Positions 27,387 to 46,705 of a stretch of DNA of 64,000 nucleotides are shown here, piece by piece. The DNA is taken from NCBI GenBank assembly GCA_001464895.1, contig LNEE01000062.1, positions 438,333-502,332 of the forward strand, given 5' to 3'. The stretch's first letter is position 1. Each line of letters opens with the position of its first letter. This stretch comes from Betaproteobacteria bacterium Ga0077532. Lineage in GTDB: Bacteria > Pseudomonadota > Gammaproteobacteria > Burkholderiales > Ga0077523. A model generated the notes under the pieces. The model saw only the letters and a list, made by a program, of their open reading frames with translations, ran no database searches and was not told the origin of the DNA. The translations under genes were made by a program, and so were the position numbers.

Positions 27387-27459
27387 AGATGGCGATGAAC
27401 AATGAAGCGGTCGACGCGAACGATCCCGATCTCGCGCGGCCCTCGACAGGGAGGAAGTC

Positions 27460-28650: not shown

Positions 28651-28710
28651 CCGACGCCTCGGCGGGACGCCCTCCCGCCGAGGCCTGCATGCATCCCCGG
28701 AGTCATCCAC

Positions 28711-29628
28711 ATGGTCGTCCTCCTGCAGGCCCTCTTCAGCGGCCTCGCGCTCGGCGGCATCTACTCGCTCGTCGCCGTGGGTTTCAACATCACGCACAGC
28801 ACCACGCGCACCTTCAACTTCGGCCAGGGCGAGTTCCTCGTCGCGGGCGCGTTCGTCGCTGTGTCCGGCCTCCTGCTGATCGCGGGCAAGGGCGTGACGG
28901 ACCCGCTCGAGCAGGCCGACGTCTCGATGCTCGCGTACGGCGGCGGGATGCTCGCGGCGCTCGTGATCCCCGGCATCCTCGGCGTGCTGCTCTACCTGAC
29001 CGCGGTGCGTCCGTTCGCGGGGCGCAGCGGCCTCGCGTGGGTCATGAGCACCATCGGGTTCGGTGTGCTCGTGCAGAACACGGCGCTCGCCATCTGGGGC
29101 CCGTCGCCCATGGTCATGCCCTCGCCACTGGGCGGTGAGGTCATCCGTATCGGCGGTGCGGGCGTGCTGCCGCAGGAGTTCCTGGTGCTGGGCGCCAGCA
29201 TCGTCGTGATGCTCGTCCTCGACACCGTGATGCGCCGCACGCGCATCGGCAAGGCCGTGCGCGCCGTCGCCGAGAACCGCAACGCCGCGACGCTGATGGG
29301 CATCGACGTGTCGGCCGTCGTGATCGGCGCATTCGTCGTCAGCTCGGCGCTCGCGGGCCTCGCGGGGATGCTGGTGGCGCCGATCACCACGGCCTCCGTC
29401 TTCATGGGTCTCACGCTCGCGCTCAAGGCCTTCTCGGCGGCGATCGTCGGCGGTCTCGACAACCCGCGCGGGTGCATGCTCGGCGGCTTCCTCATGGGGC
29501 TGCTCGAGGCGCTCGTCGGCCTCTGGCACGCGGAACTCCGCGAGATCGCGATCTTCCTGCTCATCATCGTCGTGCTCGTCGTGAAGCCCGAGGGGCTGCT
29601 CGGCCGCCGGCGCGTGGAGAAGGTGTGA
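28711..29628 (+). CDS. livH: branched-chain amino acid-type ABC permease LivH
   Basis: A 305-residue inner-membrane permease with about eight hydrophobic segments. LFSGLALGGIYSLVAVGFNI and HSTTRTFNFGQGEFLVAGAF near the start, and RAVAENRNAATLMGIDVSAV before the conserved loop, are LivH hallmarks. The C-terminus reads IVVLVVKPEGLLGRRRVEKV, as usual. Its stop shares one base with the next start (TGATG at 29626-29630), so it is translationally coupled to the fused permease-ATPase. Confidence 0.92.
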   Translation: MVVLLQALFSGLALGGIYSLVAVGFNITHSTTRTFNFGQGEFLVAGAFVAVSGLLLIAGKGVTDPLEQADVSMLAYGGGMLAALVIPGILGVLLYLTAVRPFAGRSGLAWVMSTIGFGVLVQNTALAIWGPSPMVMPSPLGGEVIRIGGAGVLPQEFLVLGASIVVMLVLDTVMRRTRIGKAVRAVAENRNAATLMGIDVSAVVIGAFVVSSALAGLAGMLVAPITTASVFMGLTLALKAFSAAIVGGLDNPRGCMLGGFLMGLLEALVGLWHAELREIAIFLLIIVVLVVKPEGLLGRRRVEKV

Positions 29629-31451
29629 TGCCGGGTCGTGCGCATCTCGCGGGTCTCGTTGCGGTGGTCGCTGCGGTGGCGGTGGTCCCGCTCCTCACGA
29701 GCAACGGCTTCCTGCTGAAGGTCATGTTCATGGTCGGCGTGAACTACCTCGCTGCCGCCGGCCTCAACGTGCTGGTCAACCACACCGGGCAGAAGTCGCT
29801 CGGCCACGCCGGACTCTTCGCGGTCGGCGCTTATACCGTGGCGTTGCTCACCACCCGCGGCGAGTGGAATCCGTGGCTCGCGTTCGCGGCGAGCGGCGTC
29901 GTGGCGGGTGTTTTCGGTGCCGTGATCGCGCTGCCCGCGCTGCGCGTGTCGGGCCCGGCGCTGGCGATGGTGACCATCGGATTCGGCATCGTCATCGAGA
30001 AGGTGGTCTCGGAGTGGACGGATGTCTTCGCCGGCCAGCAGGGCATCTACGGCGTGGTGCCGCCCGCCATCGGCGGCGTGGATTTCGGCGCGCGCGCGTG
30101 GGTGTGGTTCGCGGGTGCGCTGGGGATCGTCGCCCACCTCGCGATCCGCGCGCTCCTGCGCGGCAAGTACGGCCGCGCCTTCCGGGCGGTGGCCGCCGCC
30201 GAGATCGCCGCCGAGAGCGTGGGCATCAGCGTGTATCGCGTGAAGGTGCTCGCGTTCGTCGTGAGCGCCGTGACGTGCGGATTCGCCGGCGCGCTCGTGG
30301 CGCAGCAGAACCAGTACATCAGCTCCGACTTCATCACGTTCTCGCTGTCGATCTTCTTCCTGCTGATCGTCCTGTTCGGTGGCAGTTCGGTCGTGGGGCC
30401 GCTGCTGGGCGCCATCGTGCTCACGCTGCTCGACGCTTTCCTGGCGCGCTGGCCCCACGTGCAGCACTTCACATACGGTGCGATGCTGCTCTTCGCGCTG
30501 TACGCCATGCCGGACGGCCTGTCGGGCGCGCTCCGCGCGATCGGACGCCGGCTTGTCCCCGCGCTTCGCCGCGTGCCGCCGGTCCCGCCGGTGACGGGCG
30601 CCTGGAAGCTCCACGCGGGCGAGGTCCTCGCGCCCGACCGGCCGCTCCTCGATGTGCGCGGTCTGTACAAGGCCTACGGTGGTGTCGTGCCGACGAACGA
30701 CGTGAGCCTGGAACTGAAGACCGGCCACGTTCATTCGCTGATCGGTCCGAACGGCGCGGGCAAGACGACGCTGCTCAACCTGCTCTCCGGCATCGTTGCG
30801 CCCGATCGCGGCAAGATCGTCTTCGACGGCCGCCCGATCGCTGGGATCGCCCCGAACGGCGTGTGCCGGATGGGACTGGCCCGCACCTTCCAGAACCTGC
30901 GCCTCTTCGGTGACATGACGGTCCTGGAGAACGTCGCGACCGGGCTGCACACGCACCTGCGCACCGGTCTGGTCACCTGCATGACAGGCCTGCCCGCCGC
31001 GGGTCGCAAGGAGCGGGACGCCCGCGACGAGGCGCTCCGGATTCTCGAGTTCCTCGATCTCCGCGAGCGTGCCCACGAGCGGGCAGCGAGCCTGCCCTAC
31101 GGCCTGCAGCGCCGACTCGAACTCGCCCGCGCGCTTGCGACGCATCCGCGACTGTTGCTGCTCGACGAGCCGGCGGCGGGCCTCAACCCCCAGGAGACGC
31201 GCGCACTCATCGATGTGATCGCGCGCATCCGCGACCTCGGCATCACGGTGCTGCTGATCGAGCATCACATGGACCTCGTGATGGCCGTCTCCGACCACGT
31301 GATCGTGCTCGACCACGGCGTGAAGATCGCCGAGGGTGCTCCGGCCGCCGTGCAGCAGAACCCGCGGGTCATCGCCGCCTATCTGGGCACCGGCGACGAC
31401 GATGAAGTGGACGAAGCTTCCCTGGCGCTCGCGGGAGGTGCCCATGGCTGA
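29628..31451 (+). CDS. fused LivM permease and LivG ATPase
   Basis: A single 607-residue chain. Residues 1-320 are a LivM-type permease (FMVGVNYLAAAGLNVLVNHT, GQKSLGHAGLFAVGAYTV, FRAVAAAEIAAESVGISVYR). After a linker, residues 340-590 are a LivG-type ATPase with Walker A GPNGAGKT (373-380), RTFQNLRLFGDMTVLENVATG, the LPYGLQRRLELARALATHP signature region and LLLLDEPAAGLN. The two are usually separate genes. The reading frame is continuous with no stop, so this is a true fusion tying one ATPase to one permease half. The ATG at 29628 overlaps the livH stop. Confidence 0.92.
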   Translation: MPGRAHLAGLVAVVAAVAVVPLLTSNGFLLKVMFMVGVNYLAAAGLNVLVNHTGQKSLGHAGLFAVGAYTVALLTTRGEWNPWLAFAASGVVAGVFGAVIALPALRVSGPALAMVTIGFGIVIEKVVSEWTDVFAGQQGIYGVVPPAIGGVDFGARAWVWFAGALGIVAHLAIRALLRGKYGRAFRAVAAAEIAAESVGISVYRVKVLAFVVSAVTCGFAGALVAQQNQYISSDFITFSLSIFFLLIVLFGGSSVVGPLLGAIVLTLLDAFLARWPHVQHFTYGAMLLFALYAMPDGLSGALRAIGRRLVPALRRVPPVPPVTGAWKLHAGEVLAPDRPLLDVRGLYKAYGGVVPTNDVSLELKTGHVHSLIGPNGAGKTTLLNLLSGIVAPDRGKIVFDGRPIAGIAPNGVCRMGLARTFQNLRLFGDMTVLENVATGLHTHLRTGLVTCMTGLPAAGRKERDARDEALRILEFLDLRERAHERAASLPYGLQRRLELARALATHPRLLLLDEPAAGLNPQETRALIDVIARIRDLGITVLLIEHHMDLVMAVSDHVIVLDHGVKIAEGAPAAVQQNPRVIAAYLGTGDDDEVDEASLALAGGAHG

Positions 31452-32169
31452 GAGCCCGATGCTGCGTGTCGATGATCTCGAAGTGCGCTACGGCGTGATC
31501 GAGGCGCTGAAGGGCATCTCGCTGGAAGTGCGCGAGGGCGAGGTGGTGACGATCATCGGTGGCAATGGCGCCGGCAAGAGCACTTTGATGAAGGCCGTGT
31601 CCGGACTCGAACCCGTCGCCGCCGGCCGCATCCGCTTCGGCGGGACCGACATCACGACGCTCGCCGGCCATCGCCGCGTGGCGCTCGGCATCGCACAGTC
31701 GCCGGAAGGCCGGCAGGTCTTCGCGGACCAGTCCGTCCGCGACAACCTCTTGCTCGGTGCGTACCACCGCCGCGCCTCCGACGCCGACATCGAGGCGGAC
31801 ATCGAGGCGCAGTACGCACGCTTCCCCAGGCTTCGCGAGCGCAGGGCGCAGATGGCCGGGACGCTCTCCGGCGGGGAGCAGCAGATGCTCGCCATCGGCC
31901 GCGCGCTGATGGCGAGGCCGCGCCTGCTGCTCCTCGACGAACCGTCGCTCGGGCTGGCGCCGCTGATCGTGCGAGAGATCTTCGGTGTGATCCGATCGCT
32001 GCGAGCCCAGGGCGTGACCATCCTGCTCGTCGAGCAGATGGCCCACCAGGCGCTCGGCGTCGCCGACCGCGCCTACGTGCTGGAGACCGGCCGCATCACG
32101 TTGTCGGGCACCGGCGTGGAACTCCGGCGGGATCCGCGCGTGCGGGCCGCCTACCTCGGAGACCATTGA
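31444..32169 (+). CDS. livF: branched-chain amino acid-type ABC ATPase LivF
   Basis: A 241-residue cytosolic ATPase. It has Walker A GGNGAGKST, the LivF-typical IAQSPEGRQVFADQSVRDNL, the signature LSGGEQQMLAIGRALM, and Walker B LLLLDEPSLGLAPL. It pairs with the fused LivG half to power the transporter. The ATG at 31444 overlaps the preceding gene by eight bases, and its stop is immediately followed by the next ATG at 32170, so the operon continues without a gap. Confidence 0.93.
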   Translation: MAESPMLRVDDLEVRYGVIEALKGISLEVREGEVVTIIGGNGAGKSTLMKAVSGLEPVAAGRIRFGGTDITTLAGHRRVALGIAQSPEGRQVFADQSVRDNLLLGAYHRRASDADIEADIEAQYARFPRLRERRAQMAGTLSGGEQQMLAIGRALMARPRLLLLDEPSLGLAPLIVREIFGVIRSLRAQGVTILLVEQMAHQALGVADRAYVLETGRITLSGTGVELRRDPRVRAAYLGDH

Positions 32170-33807
32170 ATGACCGGGCAGTCCCGTCCTTCAGCCGACG
32201 TCTTCGACTACGTGATCGTCGGCAGTGGTGCCGCCGGTTCCCTCCTCGCGGCGCGCCTCGGCGAGGATTCCGCGGTGCGCATCTGCGTGCTGGAGGCGGG
32301 GCCCACCGACTGGCATCCGTGGCTCCATGTGCCTGCCGGCTACATCAAGAAGCTGTTCGATCCGGGGTATACGTTTCCGTACGCTTCCGAGCCCACCGAG
32401 CATACGCGGGGCCGCGCGATCCCCGTGCCGCAAGGGCGTACGCTCGGCGGGTCCACGGCGATCAACGGCCTCGTCTACAACCGCGGGCACGCGGAGGACT
32501 TCGATCACTGGGCGGCGCTGGGCAACCCCGGCTGGGCTTACGCCGAAGTGCTGCCGCTCTTCAAGCGCACCGAGCGCTGGCTCGGACCGGACCCCGACGG
32601 CCTGCGCGGGCGCAGCGGCGCGATGACCGTGACGCCCATCGACTGGATCCATCCGATCTGCGAGGCATTCATCGAGGGGGCCGGCGAACTCGGCATCCCG
32701 CGCAACGCCGACTACAACGGCGCCGTGCAGGCGGGTGTCGGTTACTTCCAGCGCACGATCCATCGCGGCTGGCGGGTGAGCGCCGCGGGGTCGTTCCTGC
32801 ACCCGGCACGCAAGCGCGGCAACGTCACGGTGCGCACGCATGCGCACGCCACGCGACTCGTGTTCGAAGCAGGCAGAGCGGTCGGTGTGTGCTATGCGCA
32901 GGGCGGCAACGCGAGCGATCTTCGCGAGGTCCGCGCGAGCCGCGAAGTCATCCTCGCCACCGGTGCCCTCAACACGCCGCGCCTGCTGCAGTTGTCGGGT
33001 ATCGGGCCCGGTGCGCTGCTCCAGCGGTTCGGCATTCCGGTCGTGCGTGATCTGCCCGGCGTGGGCCGGCATCTGAAGGATCACTTCTCGGTGCGCGTGG
33101 TCGCCCGAACGCGTGACGTCACGACCATGAACGAGCTTTCGCGTGGCCCGCAGCTGCTCGGGCAGATCGCCCGGTGGATGCTGAAGCGGCCGAGCATCCT
33201 CGCGCTGAGTCCGTCATTGGTGCACTGGTTCTGGAAGTCGCGCGAGGGGCTCGACCGGCCGGACCTGCAGGGCGTCTTCACGCCCGCGAGCTATCGCGAA
33301 GGCTACGTGGGCATGCTCGACGTGTACCCGGGCATGACCTGCGGCGTATGGCAGCACCGGCCGGAGGGCAGCGGCTTCGTCGAACTGCAGTCGACGGACC
33401 CCTTCGAAGCGCCGCGCATCCAGCCGCGCTATCTCGAACACGAAGGCGATCGCAGGGTGCTGCTGGACGGCGTGCGCATCGCGCGGCACCTGCTGCGAAC
33501 CCAGGCGCTCGCCCGATATGTGGAGGCGGAGACGATGCCCGGCGTGGCGGTGGATCGCGACGACGAGGTGCTCGATTTCGTGCGGCGCATCGGCGTGTCG
33601 TCGTACCACCTGAACGGCACGGCGCGCATGGGGCCGGCGTCGGACCCGATGGCGGTGGTGGATGCGCAGCTCCGCGTGCATGGCATCGCTGGCCTGCGCG
33701 TCGTCGACGCGTCGGTCATGCCGGAGATCCCGTCGGCGAACACGGCGGCGTCGACGATGATGATCGCGGAGAAGGCCGCCGACATGATCCGCGGCGCCTG
33801 CGACTGA
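32170..33807 (+). CDS. GMC family FAD-dependent alcohol oxidoreductase (second copy)
   Basis: A 545-residue relative of the enzyme at 25743. The FAD motif is FDYVIVGSGAAGSLLAARLG, the GMC signature is GRTLGGSTAINGLVYNRG, and the catalytic His/Asn pair lies in YHLNGTARMG and IPSANTAASTMM. It begins directly at the livF stop and is the last gene of the operon. Two GMC enzymes flanking one transporter suggest successive or alternative oxidations of the imported compound. No terminator was seen after the stop at 33807. Confidence 0.88.
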   Translation: MTGQSRPSADVFDYVIVGSGAAGSLLAARLGEDSAVRICVLEAGPTDWHPWLHVPAGYIKKLFDPGYTFPYASEPTEHTRGRAIPVPQGRTLGGSTAINGLVYNRGHAEDFDHWAALGNPGWAYAEVLPLFKRTERWLGPDPDGLRGRSGAMTVTPIDWIHPICEAFIEGAGELGIPRNADYNGAVQAGVGYFQRTIHRGWRVSAAGSFLHPARKRGNVTVRTHAHATRLVFEAGRAVGVCYAQGGNASDLREVRASREVILATGALNTPRLLQLSGIGPGALLQRFGIPVVRDLPGVGRHLKDHFSVRVVARTRDVTTMNELSRGPQLLGQIARWMLKRPSILALSPSLVHWFWKSREGLDRPDLQGVFTPASYREGYVGMLDVYPGMTCGVWQHRPEGSGFVELQSTDPFEAPRIQPRYLEHEGDRRVLLDGVRIARHLLRTQALARYVEAETMPGVAVDRDDEVLDFVRRIGVSSYHLNGTARMGPASDPMAVVDAQLRVHGIAGLRVVDASVMPEIPSANTAASTMMIAEKAADMIRGACD

Positions 33808-34219: not shown

Positions 34220-34434
34220 TCAACCGCCTCCGAAAGCCTTTCGGACCATGCCGCGCGCCACGACGCTGTGCTAGATTTCCCACGGGCCGGCACCAAGGCC
34301 GACCTGCCGATTTCGCGTCGTGCATACCAACAAGAATCCCGACCGAGCCACGCCATGAGACCTGACCTGCTCGATGAACGAAGCCCTGCGGGTGGGGGCT
34401 GCAGTGTTCGTTGCCGGCATTGTCGGGGCGCACC

Positions 34435-37400
34435 ATGAGTGAACTCCTGTGCCTTTCTTGTGGAGTTCGATTGCCCGACACGGCAAAGTTCTGCAGTGAA
34501 TGCGGAGTCGCTGTGGCGCGTGCGATGGGCGGCCACCCTCATCCGGGTGCCGGTCCGGAGGTGCGACAGGCCACCGTCGTGAGCTGTGACCTCGCCGACT
34601 ACACGTTGATGACCGATCGGCTCTATGTCGGCGATTCCCACAAGGTCGTGAGCGACGTGCTGAGGGCCATCGCCGATGTCATGGGCCAGTTCAAGGACGG
34701 CATCCTGCGTTCGGTCGACAGGCCCGAAGGAGACTCGGTTCTCTACATCTTCGGGTATCCACGGGCGCGTGACGACGATGCAGTACGCGCCACCCAGGCC
34801 GCGCTGCGTGCGGCAGCGGCGGTTGCCCGTCTGAGACCGTGTGACGACGTCGAGCCGCAGATTCGCGTTGGAGTCGACACGGGTGAGATCGTGATCGAGC
34901 CGGGGACCGAAGCGCACCAGATTCCTGTCCACGGACCGGCCTGCAATCGCGCGGCGCGTCTGCGCGCACTGGCGCCACCAGGGGGCGTCGTCGTTTCTCA
35001 GGCGACCCACCGCCTGATTGCCGGCTATGTGAACTGCAAGGACCTCGGCCTGCAGCCGATGAAAGGGCTTCCCGATCAGCGCGCCTGGCATGTGACCGAG
35101 TTTCGCCGTGTCCGAAGCAGTTTCGTCGGCGTTCGGGGCTACACCGCTCTCACACCTCTTGTCGGACGTGGGCCGGAGATCGGGCTGTTGTTGGATCGCT
35201 GGCAACTGGCGCGAGACGGGGTCGGCCAGGTGGTCTTCCTGGCTGGCGAGCCTGGGGTCGGCAAGTCGCGGCTTCTGGCCGAGCTCGTCAACCGCACCGA
35301 GGTCGACGACCAAGCGGTGCTGTTGTACCAGTGCTCGCACTATCACCGAACCAGTGCCTTTCATCCCATCGTCGAATCGATGCTCGGCAGTCTCGATGTC
35401 GACGACGACACGCCGGCGTCGGACAAGCGTCAGCGACTCGAGGCACTGGTGCTCGGTGTGCTCGGCCTGCCGGCGGACGTCTATCGAACAGTCGCCGGCA
35501 TCGTCTCGATCGACTGCGACGACGGACAATCCGTGGCGAAGCCAGCTACGGTGGATCTCGCACAGGAGATCGATGCGCTGATGGCTGTCGCCGAGGCGCG
35601 CCTCGCGGGCCAGCCGGCGTCCATCCTGGTGCTGGAGGACGCGCACTGGGCGGACCCCAGCACGCTGCAGGTGCTCGATGCGTTCGTGCGCCGAGTTTCA
35701 GGCCTCCCGACACTGCTGGTCGTGACTCACCGACCCGAGTTCGACAACCGTCGGTGGTCCGGCGCGCACGTGACGAGGCTCGATCTCGGTGGTCTCGCCG
35801 CCTCGTACAGCGAATCGCTGGTGCGACGGGTGGACGACAAGGGCCGCCTGCCCAGTGCCGCCATCCGGCACATCGTTGGAAAGACCGACGGGATTCCGCT
35901 GTTCATCGAGGAACTCACCAAGGCGATCCTCGAACTTCGCGGGGGCGAGCAGATCTGGAACGATCTGGATTCGATGGCGTCGCCGGCGGGCATCGCCGTC
36001 CCGCTGACCCTGAGGGATTCCCTGACGGCGCGCCTCGATCGCGTACCGTCCGGAAAGGCTGTCGCGCAGGTCGCGGCGATCATCGGCCGGGAGTTCTCCG
36101 AGGCCCTGCTGGCGGCGGTGATGCAGGCTTCACAGATCGACTTCCACCGCGGCCTCGCCGACCTAGAGGAGGCCGGGCTCGTGTTTCGGCATCCGGCTGC
36201 CACCGAGCGGACCTACCGATTCAAGCACGCGCTCATCCAGGACGTTGCGCGTGACTCGATTCTCCGCGATGCCCGGCAACGCTTGCACGGCCTGGTGGCG
36301 CAAGCCCTGGAGAAGCAGGTCGCCGATGGCCGGAACGTCGCGCCGGAAGTGCTCGCCCATCACTATGCCGAGGCCAACCGCCCCGAGCTGGCGGTGGATT
36401 ACTGGAGCCAGGCCGCGGATCTTGCAGCACGCCATGCGGCAAACGCCGAGGCCATCTATCACCTCAACCAGGGCCTGCGGGCGGCGCAACGATGCGTCGA
36501 CAGTCCGCAGCGGAATGAGACCAAGCTCAAGCTTCTCGCGGCACTCGCCCGTGTGCTCGTTGCAGTGAAGGGTTATGCCTCGGACGATGTGTGGACCGTT
36601 TTCCAGATGGCGCGAAAGCTCTTCCCCGAAGTGGGTGACGAGCACGACGGCAAGTTCATCGTTGCCTGGGGTGAGGGGCATTCATCGCTTGTGTCGGCGC
36701 AATACCAGAGGGGTCTGGAGCGCGGGTTCGAATTGGCGGCCCACGCCGAACAGGCCCGCAGCAGCGAGAACTTCGCTGCGGCACAACTGCTCGTCGGTGT
36801 GGCACACCTGTATCTTGGGAAGCATGCCGTCGCTCGGGAACGGCTCGAGCTCGCCGCGGGGATCAACTCGACGCCGGACCGCATGCCAGACCCGGGTGCT
36901 GTCACGCCAGAGACAACCGCCAAGGCGCTCGCCTATCTGGCTCGGACGGTATGGTTCCTCGGCCGGCCCGATGAGGCCGCCCGACTGAGTGCGCAGGCGG
37001 TGGATCTTGCCCGCAAGGCCTTCATGCCGCTCATTCCGACGCAAACGGCATCGATGTGCATGCTCGTCCACCAGATCCGCGGCGACCGGGAGCAGACGCG
37101 GACGTGGATCGATCGTACGAGGACCTACGCTACGGAGAAGGATCCCCAGCCCTACTGGTTGCGCCTCGCCAACATCGTCGACCTGTGGTGGCACGCGGAA
37201 GACGACCCGTGGCACGCTGCCGATGGAATCCGGATGCGGATAGACGAATACCGCGCGACAGGGGCCCGGGTCGGGCTCTCCGGATTCCTGCTCCTGCAGG
37301 CCGAGGTCATGGAGCGCGCGAAGCGCCTCGACGATGCCGCTTCGGCGGTTGGGGAGGCACTGGCTTTCGCGCAGAGCACCGGCGAGGTCTATTACCTGCC

Positions 37401-37719
37401 GGAGATTCATCGCCGGCGGGCGTCCTTGATGCTCGCGAGTCGAGGCAAGCGCGCCCGGCCGGCAGCTGAGGGGGTCCTGATGGACGCGATCGAGATTGCA
37501 CGGCGCCAGCAGGCGCTCTCATGGGAACTACGAGGTGCCAACAGCCTCGCCCGGCTCTGGCTCGATGGTGGGCGACCGCAGGAAGCCGCCGACCTGCTCG
37601 CGCCGGTCTACGGACAAATCACGGAGGGCTTCCTCAGCCCCGACGCGACCGAAGCCCGTGACCTTCTGAACGCGCTGCCCCAGCCGTCAGACCGAAAGCG
37701 GGCGGACCTGCTCCACTAG
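34435..37719 (+). CDS. zinc-ribbon / class III cyclase / AAA ATPase / TPR signalling protein
   Basis: A 1094-residue cytosolic protein with four parts. A zinc ribbon has Cys6, Cys9, Cys20 and Cys23. A class III nucleotide cyclase domain (45-200) has metal Asp52 (VVSCDLADYT) and Asp100 (EGDSVLYIFG) and the Asn171/Arg175 pair in GPACNRAARL, so it looks catalytically competent. A STAND-like ATPase domain has Walker A GEPGVGKS (271-278) and Walker B ILVLEDAHWAD (397-407). A long helical repeat tail from about 620 resembles TPRs. Such proteins couple ATPase-driven sensing to cAMP production. Its end overlaps the convergent polyprenyl synthetase by 33 bp. Confidence 0.88.
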   Translation: MSELLCLSCGVRLPDTAKFCSECGVAVARAMGGHPHPGAGPEVRQATVVSCDLADYTLMTDRLYVGDSHKVVSDVLRAIADVMGQFKDGILRSVDRPEGDSVLYIFGYPRARDDDAVRATQAALRAAAAVARLRPCDDVEPQIRVGVDTGEIVIEPGTEAHQIPVHGPACNRAARLRALAPPGGVVVSQATHRLIAGYVNCKDLGLQPMKGLPDQRAWHVTEFRRVRSSFVGVRGYTALTPLVGRGPEIGLLLDRWQLARDGVGQVVFLAGEPGVGKSRLLAELVNRTEVDDQAVLLYQCSHYHRTSAFHPIVESMLGSLDVDDDTPASDKRQRLEALVLGVLGLPADVYRTVAGIVSIDCDDGQSVAKPATVDLAQEIDALMAVAEARLAGQPASILVLEDAHWADPSTLQVLDAFVRRVSGLPTLLVVTHRPEFDNRRWSGAHVTRLDLGGLAASYSESLVRRVDDKGRLPSAAIRHIVGKTDGIPLFIEELTKAILELRGGEQIWNDLDSMASPAGIAVPLTLRDSLTARLDRVPSGKAVAQVAAIIGREFSEALLAAVMQASQIDFHRGLADLEEAGLVFRHPAATERTYRFKHALIQDVARDSILRDARQRLHGLVAQALEKQVADGRNVAPEVLAHHYAEANRPELAVDYWSQAADLAARHAANAEAIYHLNQGLRAAQRCVDSPQRNETKLKLLAALARVLVAVKGYASDDVWTVFQMARKLFPEVGDEHDGKFIVAWGEGHSSLVSAQYQRGLERGFELAAHAEQARSSENFAAAQLLVGVAHLYLGKHAVARERLELAAGINSTPDRMPDPGAVTPETTAKALAYLARTVWFLGRPDEAARLSAQAVDLARKAFMPLIPTQTASMCMLVHQIRGDREQTRTWIDRTRTYATEKDPQPYWLRLANIVDLWWHAEDDPWHAADGIRMRIDEYRATGARVGLSGFLLLQAEVMERAKRLDDAASAVGEALAFAQSTGEVYYLPEIHRRRASLMLASRGKRARPAAEGVLMDAIEIARRQQALSWELRGANSLARLWLDGGRPQEAADLLAPVYGQITEGFLSPDATEARDLLNALPQPSDRKRADLLH

Positions 37720-38844
37720 GCGCAGCAGTTCGTCGGCGTAGGGCACACCAAGAGTCTCCGCCTCGTCGATGGCCTGCGCCTGGATCCGGTCGAGCTCCGC
37801 ATCGGCTCGACCGAGCTGGGCCTGGAAGGCCGCCGTGAGAGTGTGCGTGTCGTTCTCGTCGAGCGGGTCCTTTCTGAAAATCTCGATCAGCGAGGGGTCG
37901 TGCTGGAGCGCGAGCGCCGCGGGCAGGGTGAGGATGCCGTCCCGGACATCTTCGTCACCGCCGCCACCGAGACGGACGGACTGCTTCACGTCGGCGACGT
38001 CGTCGCAGCCGTGATAGAGCATGCCGAGCAGCCGCCCGAACCGCCGGAACTTCTGGGACCGTGCGCCGAGCACCGCACAGATCTCGAACATGCAGCCGGT
38101 GTCCTCCCGGGCGAGGTAGTGCCAGTCGGCCAGGCCGAAGAGCACGCGCGGACGGCGTTCCCGGGGGCGGAGGGCGCCGCCCTTGCGGCTGTCCCACTGC
38201 ACGCATTCCGCCACCGCCAAGCGCTTCATCAGTTCGGAGATCAGGCGCATGTCGAAACGCACCGGGCCGGTGTTGTTGAGCGACTGCCGCACGGCAGCCG
38301 AGACCAGCCCGCCCTGATCGAGCTGCGAGCGGCCGTCACGGTCCACGGCCTCGACGATGCCATGAGCCCGATCCGCCACGGCCTCGCGACGTCGTCGCTG
38401 TGTCTCGGCGTCGAGGCCGGCGAGATCGATGAACTCGTCCGACATCGTCTGGGCGAGCAGGTCGTAGGCGTCCGCGACGATGAAACCCGAGACCATGTAC
38501 GCCGTCAGCGAGTCGTATACGGGGTGAAGCGTCGGCTTGCCGCGGCGTTCGTCCGAGTGGTCGACGATGTCGTCGATGATGAGCGTGACGTTGTGGATCA
38601 TCTCCACGGCCTGCGCCGTGACGATCATGCGGTCGGGTACCGGCTCGCGCGTCTGGGAGAAGTGGCAACCGAAGACGGTGAGCGGACGGAAGAACTTGGA
38701 GAGCCCGTGGAACTGCTGATCGAGCATGGCGCGGATCGCCGGGTCCGCGGAGTTCAGCCAGGCCTCGATGCGCGCCTCGAGCCGTTCGACCTCCTTCTCA
38801 CGGCCGAGGTGGCGGATGACTTCGATGGGGGCGATGGTGGGCAC
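37687..38844 (-). CDS. polyprenyl synthetase family protein (isoprenyl diphosphate synthase)
   Basis: A 385-residue all-helical trans-prenyltransferase. The first Asp-rich motif is DDIVD (91-95), followed by DERRGKPTLH. The second is DDVAD (281-285) in LGMLYHGCDDVADVKQ, followed by DEDVRDGILTLPAALAL, so both Mg-diphosphate sites are present. It should condense isopentenyl diphosphate with an allylic diphosphate; the chain length cannot be read by eye. The start is a GTG at 38844 without a strong ribosome-binding site. It lies 44 bp downstream of the 169-residue gene, so they form an operon. A spacer region of about 100 residues between the motifs is unusually charged for a housekeeping IspA or IspB. 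Confidence 0.82.
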   Translation of the reverse strand: MPTIAPIEVIRHLGREKEVERLEARIEAWLNSADPAIRAMLDQQFHGLSKFFRPLTVFGCHFSQTREPVPDRMIVTAQAVEMIHNVTLIIDDIVDHSDERRGKPTLHPVYDSLTAYMVSGFIVADAYDLLAQTMSDEFIDLAGLDAETQRRRREAVADRAHGIVEAVDRDGRSQLDQGGLVSAAVRQSLNNTGPVRFDMRLISELMKRLAVAECVQWDSRKGGALRPRERRPRVLFGLADWHYLAREDTGCMFEICAVLGARSQKFRRFGRLLGMLYHGCDDVADVKQSVRLGGGGDEDVRDGILTLPAALALQHDPSLIEIFRKDPLDENDTHTLTAAFQAQLGRADAELDRIQAQAIDEAETLGVPYADELLRLVEQVRPLSV

Positions 38845-38888
38845 GGGGAGGCAGCGCAGGGGGAGTTGGCTGTCGTCGGCCGCGGTCC

Positions 38889-39398
38889 TCAGGGACGCGG
38901 CGAGAGCGGGAGCAGGTCCTCGCGAATCCTGCGCATATCGTCCTCGAACCGGCTGGCTTGGTCCCGCGCCATGGAGCCTATGTCGTGCAGCAGGATGACA
39001 AGCTGCCCGATCACGGCGAATCGTTCCTTGAACTCAGGGTCATCGACGTCGTGAAAGGCCTCTAGCTTGTCCCGAATCACAGGAGCATGTTGCTCGATCA
39101 GTCGCTGCCATTCGAGGCTCAGTCTGACGACGCTCCCGAGCAGGATGCTGTTGAGCTTGACGTTCAAGGCCTCCGGATCACTGGTGGGCGCAACGAGAAG
39201 ATCATCGTCTTCATCTGCATCGCTACCGGTCCACGCGCGGCACGCCTTCCGGTAGCGGCGCTCTTCGATGCGCTCCTCGCGGTACTCTGCGACCGCCCGC
39301 GACAGCGCTGCCCAGTCGAGGCTCGATCGTCCCACTTCTGCCATCGTCGCGATGGCGCGCATCACTTCGTCGGGTCCGACGTTCTTCTCGTAGAGCAT
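38889..39398 (-). CDS. hypothetical 169-residue protein, operon partner of polyprenyl synthetase
   Basis: An acidic, mostly helical protein. A helical N-terminus (MLYEKNVGPDEVMRAIATMA) is followed by basic EERIEERRYRKACRAW, an acidic linker DADEDDD, and a helical C-terminal half ending ILLHDIGSMARDQASRFEDD. No signal peptide or known motif is seen. It is the first gene of the two-gene minus-strand unit, and diverges from the 718-residue decarboxylase-like gene across 226 bp. Its function is unknown; by position it could be a partner of the prenyl synthase. Confidence 0.72.
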   Translation of the reverse strand: MLYEKNVGPDEVMRAIATMAEVGRSSLDWAALSRAVAEYREERIEERRYRKACRAWTGSDADEDDDLLVAPTSDPEALNVKLNSILLGSVVRLSLEWQRLIEQHAPVIRDKLEAFHDVDDPEFKERFAVIGQLVILLHDIGSMARDQASRFEDDMRRIREDLLPLSPRP

Positions 39399-39624
39399 GC
39401 GGGTCGCCTCGATAGTTCGTTACTGCGCGATCTGCGGGTCGGTGGCGCCAGCGAGTCTTGCGTGCCGCATCCCGACCGGATAAGTTGCGCCATCATAGTG
39501 ACACTTACATTCGGTGGAAAGGCTATGCGCCGAGCCGTCGTCACGTGAATGGGCAGCCGACGGACCTTTCGTACCTGTATTGACGACGCACTACATCGCT
39601 GCTGTTCTGGGAAAGGAGACACCG

Positions 39625-41781
39625 ATGTCGAAGGACGAGAACCAGCGTCAGCCCGACGGTCCGCTTGCCGCAGCCGTGACTCAGGCCGCCGCGGTGATTT
39701 CGACGGCGCTCACCGAGTACCTCGGGCGAACGTTCCAGGCGGCGGGCAATCGCGCCATCGATACTTTCGGGGCCAGTGCCGGGCGCGAGTCCGATCCTGA
39801 CTCGACACTCGGATCGATACAGCAGGTCTTTTCACAGTACCGCGATGCCCTTGGGGATCTGGCGGGTGCTCTACCTCAAGTGGTGCAGCGGGCGAGCCAG
39901 GAGTGGCGGGTGGAGCCGGGGATGCGGTTGTTGTTCCGGGCCCGGAGTACGGCGCTCGAGAAGATCGAGCTGGACAAAAAGAGCGGGCCCGAGGTGGCGT
40001 TGTACTCGGCGGTGGTGGAGTTTCTCAATGTGCTCAACCCGAGGCATGGCGTCCGAAAAGCATGGGTGCGCAATCTTTGCCTTCAACAGGAAGGTCTCGT
40101 TGAACAGAAGCTGGTTGCAGAGCGGAACTGTCAGGCGGAAGCCGTCTCATCTCTCGGACACAGGATCGCGTCGCTCACGCGCGCAATCGATGCCCTCGAG
40201 GCGCAGGCCAGCGCAACACCCGTGGTCGAGACGTGGCAGCGCGCGTTTTCCAACTTCTCGACAAGGAGCGCGCTGGAAGACAGCGTGCTGTCCGACAAAG
40301 CGGCGACAGCACACGCCGGAGTGAAGGCACTGGTCGAGCACCTCGACAAGACCTCGCCGGGAGCGCGCTGGGAGGGAGTGCTTAATCTGCTCCGCAATGT
40401 CCCTGCTCAGTTCTCTGATCCGAGGCGGGTCAATCTGCCTCAGATCCTGGATGAGATAAAGCACGAGATCCGGCGGGATCCCGTCAAGGGGCTGGCAGTC
40501 GCACAGCAGCGCCTCAATTGGATGTGCGGCGACACTGGGCACGTCTATGCATTGCTCCAACTGTTGGAGCATGCGCTCGGCGATGCATGCCTGCGTGAGA
40601 TCCTGGTCCACCAGGGAGTGTTCGACGCCTTCGTGTGCGCCATCCAGGATCTCGAGAAGCCGCAGAACAGTCTGCAGCCGAAGTGGGAGAGTGCTCTTCG
40701 TCAGGTGTTTTCAGGGATCGGCTATCCGTTGGGGCGGCCGCTCACCGTCCTCGCCCAGTGCACCCGGCAGAGGAACGAGTTCACTGTTCTCGATCATGCG
40801 CATGATCGCGTCTTCAACATCCGGGAAAGCGAGTCCGGATTCTCTGCGGATGCCGTTCAGGAGTTGGAGATGTACGGCCTCCGGGAAGGTCGGACGTATT
40901 TCACGGCGACCGCGCGCCAGACGCCTTGCGTCACCCAACGAGTCCTCCCGCATCGCATTCACGATGCTGCGGTTGGCATGGCTGTCTGGATGGTGGACCG
41001 ACGGGAAGTCCAGTCCATCCTCGACAGCGCCCCCGACCGCCCGCCGGTCAAGGTTCGCGCGTGGGACATGGGTGTGAATCGGACCCCTCTGGTGTTGTTC
41101 GTCGTGCACTATCGCGAGTCGGATATCTGCGAGCTTGGCGGCACTGACCCGGCGACAGCTGCGCGTGCGAAAGAAATCGACGAGCACTACGAACTGGGTC
41201 TCGGGTGCTTCGTTGCGCCACGCAACGATCCATTGGCGATCGGCATGATGGTACTCGGGAAGCTGCCGGTATCCATGGCTGCGGCCGCACAGGTGGGCCG
41301 GGAGATCTGGGGCTACGACAAGGTGCCCGTCGACTCGGGCCGTTGGGATCTGCGCTATCGACCGGACGCGATGACGTGCCTGCTGGAACTGCCCGGCGAC
41401 GTGCGCCTGCGTGTCGAACTGCCGCGGGGAGGCAAGCGCTCCTCGACTCGGATTCCCTTGTTCAGCTACACGACCAAGTTCGGACAGTTGCACCGCAACG
41501 TCCTGACGCGCAGCGGTTCGGGGGAGACATTGCGTGTCGGGTGGCACGGAGTGGCAGTGTCGATCGATCGCCCGAATCACACCGCAACGAACTGGTGGGA
41601 AGATTCGCAAGCCGGAGGCGAATGCCGTTCGCTGCTCACGCTGCTTTACCAGTTCGGAATCGTCCGGGACGACCCGACAAAGGGGCGACGTGCCGCGTAC
41701 TCTCTTTGGACCGAACACATGCAGGGAGAGCAGGGCCCTCCGTGCATCGTGCCCAACATCGGTGTTCGAGAGGATGAGTGA
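39625..41781 (+). CDS. large protein with C-terminal acetoacetate decarboxylase-like domain
   Basis: A 718-residue protein from the ATG at 39625 (AAGGAG at 39613-39618). Residues 1-390 are helical and unrecognised: ALTEYLGRTFQAAGNRAIDT, EWRVEPGMRLLFRARSTALE and VRKAWVRNLCLQQEGLVEQK. Residues about 500-680 resemble the acetoacetate decarboxylase fold: HYELGLGCFVAPRNDPLAIG, GREIWGYDKVPVDSG and LPRGGKRSSTRIPLFSYTTK. By eye GREIWGYDK aligns with GREIWGYPKK of true decarboxylases, keeping the Schiff-base lysine (Lys566) but losing the neighbouring Lys. Catalysis is therefore possible but altered. It converges with the flavoprotein gene six bases away. Confidence 0.72.
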   Translation: MSKDENQRQPDGPLAAAVTQAAAVISTALTEYLGRTFQAAGNRAIDTFGASAGRESDPDSTLGSIQQVFSQYRDALGDLAGALPQVVQRASQEWRVEPGMRLLFRARSTALEKIELDKKSGPEVALYSAVVEFLNVLNPRHGVRKAWVRNLCLQQEGLVEQKLVAERNCQAEAVSSLGHRIASLTRAIDALEAQASATPVVETWQRAFSNFSTRSALEDSVLSDKAATAHAGVKALVEHLDKTSPGARWEGVLNLLRNVPAQFSDPRRVNLPQILDEIKHEIRRDPVKGLAVAQQRLNWMCGDTGHVYALLQLLEHALGDACLREILVHQGVFDAFVCAIQDLEKPQNSLQPKWESALRQVFSGIGYPLGRPLTVLAQCTRQRNEFTVLDHAHDRVFNIRESESGFSADAVQELEMYGLREGRTYFTATARQTPCVTQRVLPHRIHDAAVGMAVWMVDRREVQSILDSAPDRPPVKVRAWDMGVNRTPLVLFVVHYRESDICELGGTDPATAARAKEIDEHYELGLGCFVAPRNDPLAIGMMVLGKLPVSMAAAAQVGREIWGYDKVPVDSGRWDLRYRPDAMTCLLELPGDVRLRVELPRGGKRSSTRIPLFSYTTKFGQLHRNVLTRSGSGETLRVGWHGVAVSIDRPNHTATNWWEDSQAGGECRSLLTLLYQFGIVRDDPTKGRRAAYSLWTEHMQGEQGPPCIVPNIGVREDE

Positions 41782-41787
41782 GGGGCT

Positions 41788-44160
41788 TCAGTCGTCGGGC
41801 GGTTTGTGGAGGGGTAGATCCGCCATCCATTGCGCAGCACCCGCGTACAGGCCGAGTGCGGTGGAGGCTGCGTTCCCGGGGATCGCGAACATCGCGTCCG
41901 CACTTGCCCGCATGTCCCGGGGAGACAGTGCTCTTTCCGGATGGCGCCGCATCTCGAGTGTGCTGGACGCTGCCTTGGCGGTCGGCAGATACGGTGCGAG
42001 GATGGCCTTCATGGCCTCTGCGTTGGCGCGCGGCAGCGTCCTGGGCATGAGTACCTTGATCTCGTTGAAGTAGGTTGCCGACGGCGAAAGCTCGGGTTTG
42101 TCAGTCCTCAACTGGGCCTGCACCGCGCGGGCCGCGTTCAGTCCGCTGAGCACTGCACCCTCCACGCAGATCACGTCGATGTCGTTCGCCACGAAATCGC
42201 CAGCGAGAAAGAGGTTCGGGATCTCGGTCACGGTCTCCGGCCGCCAGGGCTCGCTGCCCACCTCGTTGAGGAACAGAGGCTCGTTGACGTTCATTTGCAG
42301 GTACGTCCGAGAGAAGTCGACATCCTGCTCGACATCGAATGGTATGAAGCGGCGCAGGTCCGAGAGGATCTCCCGCGCTGCATCGTCCTTGGTCATGCCC
42401 TCGATCCGGTAGAAGTCTGTGACTGCCACGCTGAGATGCGTCGGCGCGGTCTTGTCCGGAATCGGAGGGCCGCCCGCCGAAGGCTTCTCGCGCGACCACA
42501 GCTGAGAATTGTCGAAGAAGCTGATCGCGTATCGCGAGTCGCGCAGCACCACATGGTGCTCGGGGATGCCTTCGAGCTTCCGGTTGAAGTACAGGTCCAG
42601 CACGGCTGTGACCCCTGATTGCAGCTTCCGAACGGCGGCCATGCCCGGCAGGCGGTCCCGGAGATCCGAGACGATTCCGGCGAGGGCGAGGGGCGGCACC
42701 GCCATGATCACGTAGTCGGGCTCGAACTCGGCCCGCTGCTCCGGTCCGGCAGAATCGTCCTGACGCTCGCCATCGTTGTTGCTGCGAGGCCATCGGGTGT
42801 CGGATGGGCGGAACGCGAGCTCGCTCACCCGCCCTGTCGCCTTGTTGAACCCGAACCGGCTCACCTTCATGCCGCGGTGGATCCGACACGGAATCTTCTC
42901 GCCGCCATCGGAGTCTTCAAGCTTCTCCGCCAACATCTCGAAAAGCGTGCCGTCGACATTCGACTTCAACACCCGGAGTGCCGGGTCAGGGTCTGCCAAC
43001 GTGAACGCCAGATGCTTCTGGTACGCGTAGGCGGAGCTGTAGTACGCCGGTACCGCAAACGCCCTCAACAACAAGTGCTCGTGGATCTTCAGGGACTCCT
43101 CGGATGCGTACCACCGGGAGGAGAGGAAGCCGTGCACGCTGACACGGTCGAGATAGCGTGCGGGATCCAGCGGCTCGCTCACGAGGTCCAGCGCGGAATA
43201 CAGTACGAGAAAGGAGTCGGGCAGACTGGTGATCCCGGCGAGCATGTTCTCCGCCCACTGTTCGGTCTTGCCGAGCTTCTTCAGCTTGTGGGTGCGGCGC
43301 TTCATGGGCGTCGAGCCCGGATGCATGTGGAGGTAGTGATCCCGCGGCTCGAAATGGGTGTCCCGGTCCAGCCCGATATCCTTCATGAGACGCCAGAAGT
43401 TGACGTACCAGTTGAGGTACATGTGGTAGCAGTGTTCGTGGCACTCATCATCGCTGATGTCGAGGATCCACGTCTCGTTGAAGCGTTTGCGAACGCTGAT
43501 GCGGTACTTGGCCTTGCTTTTCGGATCCGTCTCCGTGATTTCCCAATGCCGTGCGCTCTCGTCCCAATGCTTCGCACTCTTTCCAGACGGGGCACGCCAA
43601 AGACGCTTGGCTGTGAAGGTGGGTGGCTGGGAGCGGCGCACTGCCAGTTCCTTGGAGAGGTCGTCGTCCTTGCCGCGATCACGCTTCCTGGTCATTCGGT
43701 CCTTTCGCGTCCAGAGCCATCTGTCGATGGTCCATTGCAGCCACGCAGGAAAGGCGTTGGCGGCGTCCAAGTCCGTGGAAAGCGCCTTCACTTCCGTGTC
43801 GGAAAGAGAACGATCCGCGCGCAGGCGGATTGGCCATTCGATTTGCGACCCGAAGCGTCGTTCGACGCGCGCGCGCATCTCCTTCGGGTCGATGGCGTTC
43901 ACCGGCTCGGGAAACTCCGCCTGCAGGATTGCCTTGAGTGGCAGGCGCATCGGATTGGCCCCGAGCTTCCCGCCGAGATTCGCACTCTGCTCGAACACCT
44001 GTACCTCGAAGCCGCGCGCCCTGAGTTCCCATGCCGCGGTCAGGCCCGCAATGCCCGCGCCGACGATTGCGACTCTCACCGGGCGCACTTTCTCGTCCGC
44101 ACCGGCGCCTTTCGCGTCACTGCCTTCGCCCGAAGTCCTTTCGCCATTGCCACCGCTCAT
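41788..44160 (-). CDS. FAD-dependent amine-oxidase/phytoene-desaturase-like oxidoreductase
   Basis: A 790-residue flavoprotein. After a polar N-terminus, the FAD motif is VRVAIVGAGIAGLTAAWELR (GAGIAG at 34-39), with the adenosine Glu58 in VQVFEQSANLGGKLG. The C-terminal FAD motif is NLFLAGDFVANDIDVICVEG and SGLNAARAV. This pairing is that of phytoene desaturase, hydroxysqualene dehydroxylase and related isoprenoid desaturases. The protein is longer than these (about 500), with a charged insertion near 130-200 (MTRKRDRGKDDDLSKEL) and a C-terminal extension of about 100. It lies between the decarboxylase-like gene and a small thioredoxin-like gene. The substrate is unknown, but isoprenoid context is plausible. 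Confidence 0.82.
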   Translation of the reverse strand: MSGGNGERTSGEGSDAKGAGADEKVRPVRVAIVGAGIAGLTAAWELRARGFEVQVFEQSANLGGKLGANPMRLPLKAILQAEFPEPVNAIDPKEMRARVERRFGSQIEWPIRLRADRSLSDTEVKALSTDLDAANAFPAWLQWTIDRWLWTRKDRMTRKRDRGKDDDLSKELAVRRSQPPTFTAKRLWRAPSGKSAKHWDESARHWEITETDPKSKAKYRISVRKRFNETWILDISDDECHEHCYHMYLNWYVNFWRLMKDIGLDRDTHFEPRDHYLHMHPGSTPMKRRTHKLKKLGKTEQWAENMLAGITSLPDSFLVLYSALDLVSEPLDPARYLDRVSVHGFLSSRWYASEESLKIHEHLLLRAFAVPAYYSSAYAYQKHLAFTLADPDPALRVLKSNVDGTLFEMLAEKLEDSDGGEKIPCRIHRGMKVSRFGFNKATGRVSELAFRPSDTRWPRSNNDGERQDDSAGPEQRAEFEPDYVIMAVPPLALAGIVSDLRDRLPGMAAVRKLQSGVTAVLDLYFNRKLEGIPEHHVVLRDSRYAISFFDNSQLWSREKPSAGGPPIPDKTAPTHLSVAVTDFYRIEGMTKDDAAREILSDLRRFIPFDVEQDVDFSRTYLQMNVNEPLFLNEVGSEPWRPETVTEIPNLFLAGDFVANDIDVICVEGAVLSGLNAARAVQAQLRTDKPELSPSATYFNEIKVLMPRTLPRANAEAMKAILAPYLPTAKAASSTLEMRRHPERALSPRDMRASADAMFAIPGNAASTALGLYAGAAQWMADLPLHKPPDD

Positions 44161-45058: not shown

Positions 45059-46705
45059 TTACGGCGCCTTAGTCATCCAATACTGCCCCGACACCTCGGC
45101 GCAGTTCGCCATCTGCAGCTGGTTGTTCTTCCCGTCGTTCACGACATCGAGACACTTGCCCGGCCCCGTGAAGAGCGTGCGCAGGCGGACGTGGCCGGCC
45201 TGTGCGGTGTTCTCGAAGCCCCACATCTGCCCCGACACCGCCGCGCAGTCGGCCATCTGCAGCCGGTTGTTCTTGCCGTCGTTGACGATGTCGAGGCAGC
45301 GATTGGCGCCCGTGAACTGAGTCTTCAGACGGAAGCTGCCCGGCGCCTCCTTTGCGGGTTCCATCGTCCAGGCCTGACCGGAGTAGGCGCCGCATGGGGC
45401 CATCTGCACGCGGTTGTTCTTCCCGTCGTTCACGATGTCCAGACAGTTGTTGGCGCCCGTGAACATCGAGCGGAACTTCGCGGCGGTGCCCTGGGGGGCG
45501 GCCGGTGCCTGGGTTTGCGGCGGTGCGGGGTCAGGCTTGGGTTGCGGGGCTGGCGTCGGCGCGGGGGGCGGTGCGGGCGCCGGCTGCGGCTGAGCTTCCA
45601 TCGCGAGGTTCGTCGTCCAGGCCTGACCGGAGTAGTTGCCGCACGCAGCCATCTGCACCTGGTTGTTCTTCCCGTCGTTCACGATGTCGAGGCACCTGCC
45701 GGGGCCCGTGAAGAGCGTCCGCAGGCGGAGGCTGCCTCCCGTCGATTCCACGGTCCACACCTGGCCCGAGTAGGCGCCGCAGTCGGCCATCTGCAGCCGG
45801 TTGTTCTTCCCGTCGTTCACGATGTCGAGGCACTTGCCGGGGCCCGTGAACTGGGTCTTCAGGCGCACGGCGCCGGGGGCTTCCCGCGTCGGTTCGATCT
45901 GCCAGATCTGACCCGAGTAGTTGCCGCAGTCGGCCATGTGGACGCGGTTGTTCTTCCCATCGTTCACGATATCGAGGCACTTGCCGCCACCCGTGAACAT
46001 CGTGCGCAGGCGCGCCTGCGTGCTCGGCTGCTGCGCGGGAGCCTGTGTCGGTTGGGGGTCAGGCTCGGCCTGCTGGACGGGAGGCGGCGGCGCCAGGGGC
46101 GGCGGTGCGGGCTCCGTGGCGACAGGCGGTGGGGCGGTCGGTGTCGGGGCCGTGGGCGCTGCGCTGCCTTGACCACCCGCGGGTTCCAGCGTCCACATCG
46201 CGCTCCACCAGCCCTGCTGGATCGGCCCCGACTGCAGGGCGCCGTTCTCGATGTGCAGGTACTGATCGGGCTTCCACCGGTTACGGATGCGCGCGAACGG
46301 TGCGCCCTGCACGTTATCGACCACCCACATGGCGCTCCACCAGCCCGGCTGGATGGGCCCCGATTGCAGCGCGCCGTATTCGATGTGCAGGTACTGATCG
46401 CCCTTCCATCGGTTCCGCAGTTTCACGAACTCAGTGCCGGGCACGCCCTCGACGATCCACATGGCGCTCCACCAGCCCGGCTGGATGGGACCGGCCTGCG
46501 CCGCCCCGTATTCGATGTGGACGTACTGATCCGGCTTCCAGCGGTTCTTGATCCAGCTGAGCGACTGGGAATGGGCAGCGAACGAGAGCGAAAGCAGGCT
46601 GCCGAAGAGCAGCGTGACGATCGTCCGGAGCCAATGGCTCTGGCGCGAGATGATGTTGGATTCCGGCCGGCGGGCCTGGATGCGTTGCGAAGGCGTGGAT
46701 GTCAC
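45059..46705 (-). CDS. secreted repeat protein: three tryptophan-rich repeats plus two ricin-like trefoils
   Basis: A 548-residue secreted protein from a GTG. A signal peptide lies at about residues 25-48. Part 1 (49-175) has three 44-residue repeats of NRWKPDQYLHIE...GPIQPGWWSAMW. Part 2 (230-367) has three repeats of LRTLFTGPGKCLDIVNDGKN ...QMADCG.YSGQ.W. Part 3 (409-548) has three more. Triplets of this size with QxW-like ends are what a ricin-B-type beta-trefoil lectin needs, so two trefoils are likely. Pro/Ala/Gln-rich linkers lie at 181-229 and 370-408. The Cys pair in each repeat probably makes a disulfide. It should bind carbohydrate outside the cell. No catalytic domain is present. 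Confidence 0.82.
   Translation of the reverse strand: MTSTPSQRIQARRPESNIISRQSHWLRTIVTLLFGSLLSLSFAAHSQSLSWIKNRWKPDQYVHIEYGAAQAGPIQPGWWSAMWIVEGVPGTEFVKLRNRWKGDQYLHIEYGALQSGPIQPGWWSAMWVVDNVQGAPFARIRNRWKPDQYLHIENGALQSGPIQQGWWSAMWTLEPAGGQGSAAPTAPTPTAPPPVATEPAPPPLAPPPPVQQAEPDPQPTQAPAQQPSTQARLRTMFTGGGKCLDIVNDGKNNRVHMADCGNYSGQIWQIEPTREAPGAVRLKTQFTGPGKCLDIVNDGKNNRLQMADCGAYSGQVWTVESTGGSLRLRTLFTGPGRCLDIVNDGKNNQVQMAACGNYSGQAWTTNLAMEAQPQPAPAPPPAPTPAPQPKPDPAPPQTQAPAAPQGTAAKFRSMFTGANNCLDIVNDGKNNRVQMAPCGAYSGQAWTMEPAKEAPGSFRLKTQFTGANRCLDIVNDGKNNRLQMADCAAVSGQMWGFENTAQAGHVRLRTLFTGPGKCLDVVNDGKNNQLQMANCAEVSGQYWMTKAP

Follow-up and report, generated by a model that had tools for sequence, protein, structure and literature searches.

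A recurrent, patchily distributed gene set around a divergent prenyl synthase in Proteobacteria, with a possible role in isoprenoid modification

Genes of the locus

We analysed a stretch of 64,000 nucleotides (hereafter the window, with positions counted from its first letter) of contig LNEE01000062.1 from Betaproteobacteria bacterium Ga0077532, in which an initial annotation, made from the sequence alone, had proposed a set of four adjacent isoprenoid-linked genes: a polyprenyl synthetase, a partner protein, a decarboxylase-like protein and a desaturase-like flavoprotein. All four open reading frames (ORFs) are present, and together with an adjoining regulator gene they belong to families that are repeatedly neighbours in two classes of Proteobacteria. 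The genes of this cassette are as follows.

34411..37719, plus strand: CYC, a regulator with a zinc ribbon, a class III nucleotide cyclase, an AAA/STAND ATPase and TPR repeats (Pfam AAA_16, 5.4e-19; Guanylate_cyc, 4.3e-9)
37687..38844, minus strand: PS, a divergent prenyl synthase of 385 amino acids (aa) (PF00348, 1.5e-26)
38889..39398, minus strand: P2, a 169-aa, predicted helical partner of PS (fused to PS in genome G002; present in 18/19 loci)
39625..41781, plus strand: AADL, with an N-terminal helical region and a predicted domain of the acetoacetate decarboxylase (ADC) superfamily (fold of a relative, L020; Pfam ADC in 5/15 members)
41788..44160, minus strand: FLAVO, an HpnE-like FAD oxidoreductase of 790 aa (TIGR03467, 92.9 bits; Pfam Amino_oxidase, 7.4e-25)

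CYC and PS are convergent and overlap by 33 bp at their 3' ends. The AADL frame runs for 755 aa from a GTG at 39514, while the ATG at 39625 gives the 718-aa protein listed here.

Recurrence, gene order and rarity

One genome per species (84,980 genomes) was scanned with two exact FLAVO peptide patterns, and the resulting counts are lower bounds. The scan returned 17 loci, two of them betaproteobacterial (Ga0077526 and Aquabacterium terrae) and 15 called alphaproteobacterial here, with the titles Bradyrhizobium (4), Acidiphilium (2), Jannaschia, Roseomonas, Rubritepida, Palleronia, Allosediminivita, Acetobacteraceae, Alphaproteobacteria (2) and Proteobacteria, the last being a metagenome-assembled genome (L021) that appeared in our family sample for Acidiphilium. 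Adding the window itself and L119, a second Aquabacterium cassette that the exact patterns overlooked, as they did a fragment in genome G1120, brings the total to 19 cassette loci, the gene content of which was determined by tblastn, ORF clustering and hidden Markov model searches. PS and P2 each accompany FLAVO in 18/19 loci, AADL in 15/19 and CYC in 14/19. The same families are thus adjacent in Alpha- and Betaproteobacteria, in several gene orders, and the expectation of the initial annotation that a real system would recur across genomes was borne out, whereas the prospect that the genes would lie apart in most genomes was not. The annotation had regarded CYC as a regulator converging on the set; the convergence is as described, but its recurrence makes it usually a member of the set.

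In the alphaproteobacterial loci PS, P2 and a sixth gene, P1, point away from FLAVO, and FLAVO in turn converges on AADL, while CYC adjoins PS in most of them but lies beyond AADL in L031; in the betaproteobacterial loci the positions of AADL and FLAVO are swapped relative to these. The nearest relative of the window, genome G002 from the same genus (L013, on the same contig as L016, Betaproteobacteria bacterium Ga0077526), has every one of the five families, its P2 and PS being merged into a single ORF of 645 aa. AADL is missing from four loci (the two of Acidiphilium, L019 and L119), and both Acidiphilium genomes carry an unlinked AADL about 16 kb from their sole CYC homologue (E ≤ 1e-40). 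Because the families stay together through rearrangement, and because AADL is retained even when unlinked, a joint function is suggested; the recurrence in two classes goes beyond chance.

The second cassette of A. terrae (L119:3820-10481, G765:C12) is found in one genome with the first, L017; its FLAVO, P2, CYC and PS are all on the same strand, and its PS carries the residue changes described below. In the G1120 fragment, which stands outside the 19-locus count, FLAVO meets the end of AADL at the contig edge.

The cassette is rare. FLAVO relatives were found in 2/399 genomes sampled in the order, 2/12 in the genus, 1/398 in the phylum sample (the window's own genome), 1/248 in the family sample of Bradyrhizobium lablabi (the centre genome itself) and 5/249 in that of Acidiphilium, all samples counting the centre genome. 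Such patchiness would result from horizontal spread or from repeated loss. No match was found among 72,556 plasmid records for AADL (E ≤ 1e-5), FLAVO (1e-20) or PS (1e-8), and a search of viral contigs with AADL only returned no relative.

A prenyl synthase with changes at presumed allylic-site residues

PS belongs by fold family to the trans-isoprenyl diphosphate synthases (IspA, IspB, CrtE, solanesyl synthase), with which it shares the PF00348 match, two DDxxD motifs, as initially annotated (DDIVD and DDVAD), and the Lys, Arg and His residues of the isopentenyl diphosphate (IPP) site; its best sequence matches in the PDB are solanesyl, nonaprenyl and other synthases. We compared 18 cassette PS sequences (17 and that of L119) with 38 of the 44 complete non-cassette synthase matches from 18 genomes, leaving out six and one fragment. 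Positions of note in the window PS are listed here.

38560..38574, minus strand: first Asp-rich motif, DDIVD, residues 91-95 (Asp invariant in 18/18 cassette PS)
37990..38004, minus strand: second Asp-rich motif, DDVAD, residues 281-285 (Asp invariant in 18/18 cassette PS)
38101..38103, minus strand: D248 in place of the KT lysine (D in 18/18 cassette PS, K in 38/38 others)
38011..38013, minus strand: H278 in place of the Gln of FQxxDD (H in 18/18, Q in 38/38 others)
37963..37965, minus strand: G294 in place of the lysine after the second motif (G in 18/18, K in 38/38 others)
37933..37935, minus strand: I304 in place of the Lys of GKxTLP (I in 18/18; K in 32 or R in 6 of the 38 others)

Prenyl synthases are highly uniform enzymes, and the cassette PS depart from them at several positions at once. 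The KT lysine and the lysine following the second motif (the post-SARM lysine), which characterise canonical elongating enzymes, are present in 38/38 of the other synthases and in 0/18 of the cassette PS, and the FQ glutamine and the GD aspartate are replaced just as uniformly, the latter by G120 (G in 18/18 against D in 38/38). By comparison of alignment columns the Lys, Arg and His of the IPP site are intact, and K50, R53, H84, D91, D92, D95, R100, R101, D281, D282 and D285 are retained in 18/18. Cassette PS, which read EDTGSMFE at the site of the KT motif, also retain the Thr of this motif, a residue that PMC13143122 gives as conserved in all prenyl synthases. PMC10396970 describes the allylic pocket as a metal cluster lying between both Asp motifs, and the homoallylic one as made up of basic residues. 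When PS is aligned by profile to a solanesyl synthase of solved structure, the first two of the three lysine positions fall in the same places; at the third, that enzyme has Asn, and the I304 change is therefore less telling. Since conserved allylic-site residues have been lost, PS may catalyse a reaction other than chain elongation.

In a tree of the 18 cassette PS and the 38 others from these genomes, the cassette sequences form one group with support 100/100 on a long branch, with the caution that long branches meet in this tree, the cassette branch among them. The dN/dS ratios of PS, 0.06-0.09 in four pairs (three of which share L020), are the lowest of the set, and PS is thus not decaying. 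Other synthases occur in 18/18 genomes searched, with at least two complete copies in 16, one and a fragment in G776, and one in G780, where the single synthase is not a cassette PS; the window's own genome has three others, which makes PS a third or further copy. The possibility raised with the initial annotation, that PS is the sole copy or an orthologue of housekeeping IspA/IspB, did not hold: other copies are found everywhere, PS groups separately from them, and the NCBIfam cut-offs are missed.

The top NCBIfam match of the window PS, and of four other cassette PS that were scanned, is the polyprenyl transferase carried as cargo by family 2 encapsulins (NF041169). We rejected this assignment, as the window PS scores 74.3 bits against a cut-off of 450 and a shell gene is absent among the recurrent families; the published systems of this type are almost all actinobacterial (PMC8346489). 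The nearest precedent for such a shift is found in terpene synthases of insects, which derive from prenyl synthases and in which the Asp motifs are likewise kept and conserved contact residues have changed (PMC12376265, PMC13143122). There is a difference: the insect enzymes lose IPP-contact residues (PMC12376265), whereas PS keeps those tested and loses the allylic-site lysines.

The partner proteins

The partner of PS was rightly described as a protein of no recognised family, as P2 reaches no cut-off in Pfam or NCBIfam scans. The alphaproteobacterial and betaproteobacterial forms occupy the same place beside PS and are related at the profile level only (hhalign probability 82, E 1e-5, in one comparison). 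For the P2 of L020 a long helical hairpin is predicted, with a mean predicted local distance difference test (pLDDT) score of 60 overall and mostly 65-93 within the hairpin, and a Foldseek search with this low-confidence model found no structural relative at E ≤ 1. An alignment around the P2 start in three betaproteobacteria gave nothing useful.

P1, an unannotated conserved gene for about 100 aa (L020:9587-9958 and its equivalents in L018-L032), was found in 15/15 alphaproteobacterial loci, between P2 and FLAVO in 14 and between CYC and FLAVO in L019; searches of the window, L016, L017 and L119 did not find it. Of the 15 sequences recovered with the P1 model, 6 had gone into building it, and the weakest new match was 6.9e-6 (L019). 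Its dN/dS of 0.17-0.40 in four pairs indicates purifying selection. Similarity between P1 and the AADL N-terminus is weak (hhalign probability 38.6 with the betaproteobacterial sequences included and 5.9 with these excluded).

The long helical hairpins in the P2 and AADL N-terminus models suggested phasin-like granule proteins. We rejected this idea, both for these two and for P1, as hhalign gave probabilities of at most 0.14 of 100 in comparisons with 28 ORFs taken from 30 phasin loci (two loci gave no ORF, and the ORF picks were not checked singly).

That the 718-aa protein contains an acetoacetate-decarboxylase-like domain is supported by relatives of the window AADL, which itself matches no Pfam family at E ≤ 1. 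Pfam ADC is matched by 5/15 aligned members (best 3.4e-6), and all 23 Foldseek matches at E ≤ 0.001 to the L020 AADL model (mean pLDDT 75) are of the ADC superfamily, including decarboxylases, MppR and aldolase-dehydratases; sequence searches of the PDB, with the family profile and two single members, returned no ADC chain. The structural model thus indicates that AADL has the ADC-superfamily fold. It has a WGxxK lysine, a candidate counterpart of that of the superfamily, and differs from the superfamily in an extra helical N-terminus (in the L020 model a hairpin at residues 32-114, pLDDT 60-74) and in a barely recognisable sequence.

41320..41322, plus strand: K603 of the 755-aa ORF, the WGxxK lysine and candidate Schiff-base lysine (K in 15/17 AADL)

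By analogy with the ADC family, K603 may be the catalytic lysine. ADC has a pair of lysines, whereas no neighbouring second lysine is seen in the 13 aligned AADL rows that keep the first.

The initial annotation ascribed phytoene-desaturase-like FAD motifs to FLAVO. A flavoprotein of the Amino_oxidase family with retained FAD motifs it is, but the nearest NCBIfam family is HpnE, the hydroxysqualene dehydroxylase, at 92.9 bits (the cut-off being 283.05); zeta-carotene desaturase (60.4) and phytoene desaturase (38.3) score lower. We reject an assignment as HpnE, since FLAVO misses the cut-off and a true HpnE (433.8 bits) lies elsewhere in the genome, adjoining HpnC and HpnD. The betaproteobacterial FLAVO and AADL (window 41788-44160 and 39625-41781) exceed the alphaproteobacterial forms by inserts of about 150-250 residues.

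Both cyclase metal Asp residues are retained in 14/14 CYC rows. An Asn that we take to be a catalytic-site motif of the cyclase is kept in 6/14 and lost in eight (L018, L020-L024, L030, L032), in which the cyclase may be inactive or altered.

Interpretation

The reading that we favour, and consider evenly balanced between right and wrong, is that PS, P2, AADL, FLAVO and CYC, with P1 in the alphaproteobacteria, constitute an undescribed, conserved and patchily distributed isoprenoid-modifying cassette. Full-text searches of open-licence papers found no description of this gene set, nor any paper pairing "polyprenyl synthetase" with "acetoacetate decarboxylase", although a description may have gone undetected. 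The initial idea of an isoprenoid-linked set acting together gains support from recurrence; that its product is an isoprenoid is something that we infer, in part from FLAVO, as its nearest families, HpnE and carotenoid desaturases, act on isoprenoid chains.

In such a cassette PS would take an allylic prenyl diphosphate from the housekeeping synthases and ionise it through Mg2+ held by the two intact Asp-rich motifs. The KT, post-second-motif and GKxTLP lysines are presumably the contacts of the allylic diphosphate, and because they are gone, with Asp and His in place, the reaction of PS should be unlike ordinary IPP addition: a single condensation, a transfer, or cyclisation or water capture, rather than repeated additions. 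FLAVO could then oxidise, desaturate or dehydroxylate the chain, and AADL could use a lysine to form a Schiff base with a keto or aldehyde intermediate, while the small proteins P2 and P1 might, with the helical AADL N-terminus, hold the enzymes together or at a membrane and CYC might control the set. What the analysis establishes is the gene set, its recurrence, the separate PS group with its residue changes, and the ADC fold. One could go further and speculate that PS founds a catalytic class of its own within the prenyl-synthase fold, in which the metal and IPP sites are kept and the allylic lysine clamp has become an Asp/His pair. Together with the HpnE-like FLAVO and the ADC-fold AADL, on a scaffold of helical proteins, it would then make a kind of isoprenoid new to bacteria; this is a tentative proposal, which we think somewhat less likely than not to be correct.

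Several observations weigh against the cassette as we read it. PS and P2 are missing from L019, on a contig of 7.7 kb that ends at FLAVO, and the genome concerned has a single synthase match, of the non-cassette type, and no AADL match; L119 is without AADL and P1. The contact role of the lysines is presumed, and the Asn of the solved solanesyl synthase means that the third lysine is not universal. The scores of FLAVO and AADL are distant from any family of known reaction, the WGxxK lysine is lost in 2/17 AADL (L021 and L031), and the scaffold role draws solely on helical models, that of P2 having the mean pLDDT of 60 given above. In seven genomes another CYC paralogue outscores the cassette CYC against that of the window, while in G768, G777 and G779 the cassette CYC is the sole homologue at E ≤ 1e-40; CYC may have been recruited rather than inherited, and we count it as a member of the set with orthology across the classes unproven.

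The strongest competitor, which we nevertheless judge unlikely, is that PS, though divergent, elongates chains as ordinary synthases do and has P2 as a small subunit of the HepS/HexA type, in the style of hexaprenyl and heptaprenyl synthases, and that FLAVO and AADL modify the chain. The retained Asp motifs and IPP-site residues, the synthases that head the PDB matches and the position of P2 next to PS or fused to it would all fit; what speaks against it is the absence of the KT and post-SARM lysines from 18/18 cassette PS when 38/38 others have them, and the absence of any family match for P2 and, with its low-confidence model, of any structural relative at E ≤ 1. An improbable alternative has the cassette modifying or regulating the host's own squalene/hopanoid or carotenoid route, with FLAVO as a second HpnE-like enzyme on squalene-type chains. 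No squalene/phytoene synthase is among the recurrent ORF families of the loci, which are thus not carotenoid or hopanoid clusters, and to this extent the initial statement that this is no standard cluster of those kinds stands; elsewhere in the genomes a squalene/phytoene synthase match exists in 18/18, and the window's own genome has HpnC, HpnD and HpnE above cut-off and a further gene of this kind. These matches and the proximity of FLAVO to HpnE favour a link to the host route, but G779 has only one weak match (75.9 bits), FLAVO remains far under the HpnE cut-off, and the additional PS and AADL would be left unexplained.

It is very improbable, in our view, that PS is a non-catalytic prenyl diphosphate sensor or scaffold in a regulatory complex around CYC. 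The loss of conserved lysines, the presence of CYC at 14/19 loci and the missing cyclase Asn in 8/14 CYC are compatible with it, yet the six metal-site Asp are invariant, selection on PS is strong (dN/dS 0.06-0.09), and the FAD motifs and the AADL lysine are kept. Least probable of all is that the genes merely travel together and serve separate pathways: the patchy distribution and the loci without AADL or CYC would agree with this, but in two classes the families have stayed neighbours despite rearrangement, AADL is maintained where it is unlinked, and P2 has been fused to PS.

On the reading as an isoprenoid-modifying cassette, PS sequences under strong purifying selection, which keep every metal Asp and have dropped the KT and post-SARM lysines, would offer a test of which parts of the prenyl-synthase mechanism are needed, and for what purpose. 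With the cassette one can also search for an undescribed pathway in bacteria available in culture, such as Bradyrhizobium, Acidiphilium and Aquabacterium, in which the product can be sought directly.

Surroundings of the cassette

The G+C content of the cassette genes is 62-67%, against 69% upstream and 67% downstream, a weak hint that the cassette was acquired. Ten flanking ORFs of the window were scanned; two have no match and eight match unrelated families, namely two GMC oxidoreductases, a periplasmic binding protein, an ABC transporter, a ricin-type lectin, an FAA hydrolase, an amidase and Tim44. Upstream, at 25743-33807, the two GMC oxidoreductases, the ABC transporter ATPase and the periplasmic binding protein form a likely uptake and catabolic cluster. 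Adjoining the cassette on the other side, at 45059-46705, is an ORF of 548 aa with two ricin-type beta-trefoil lectin stretches, which is not common to the other loci.

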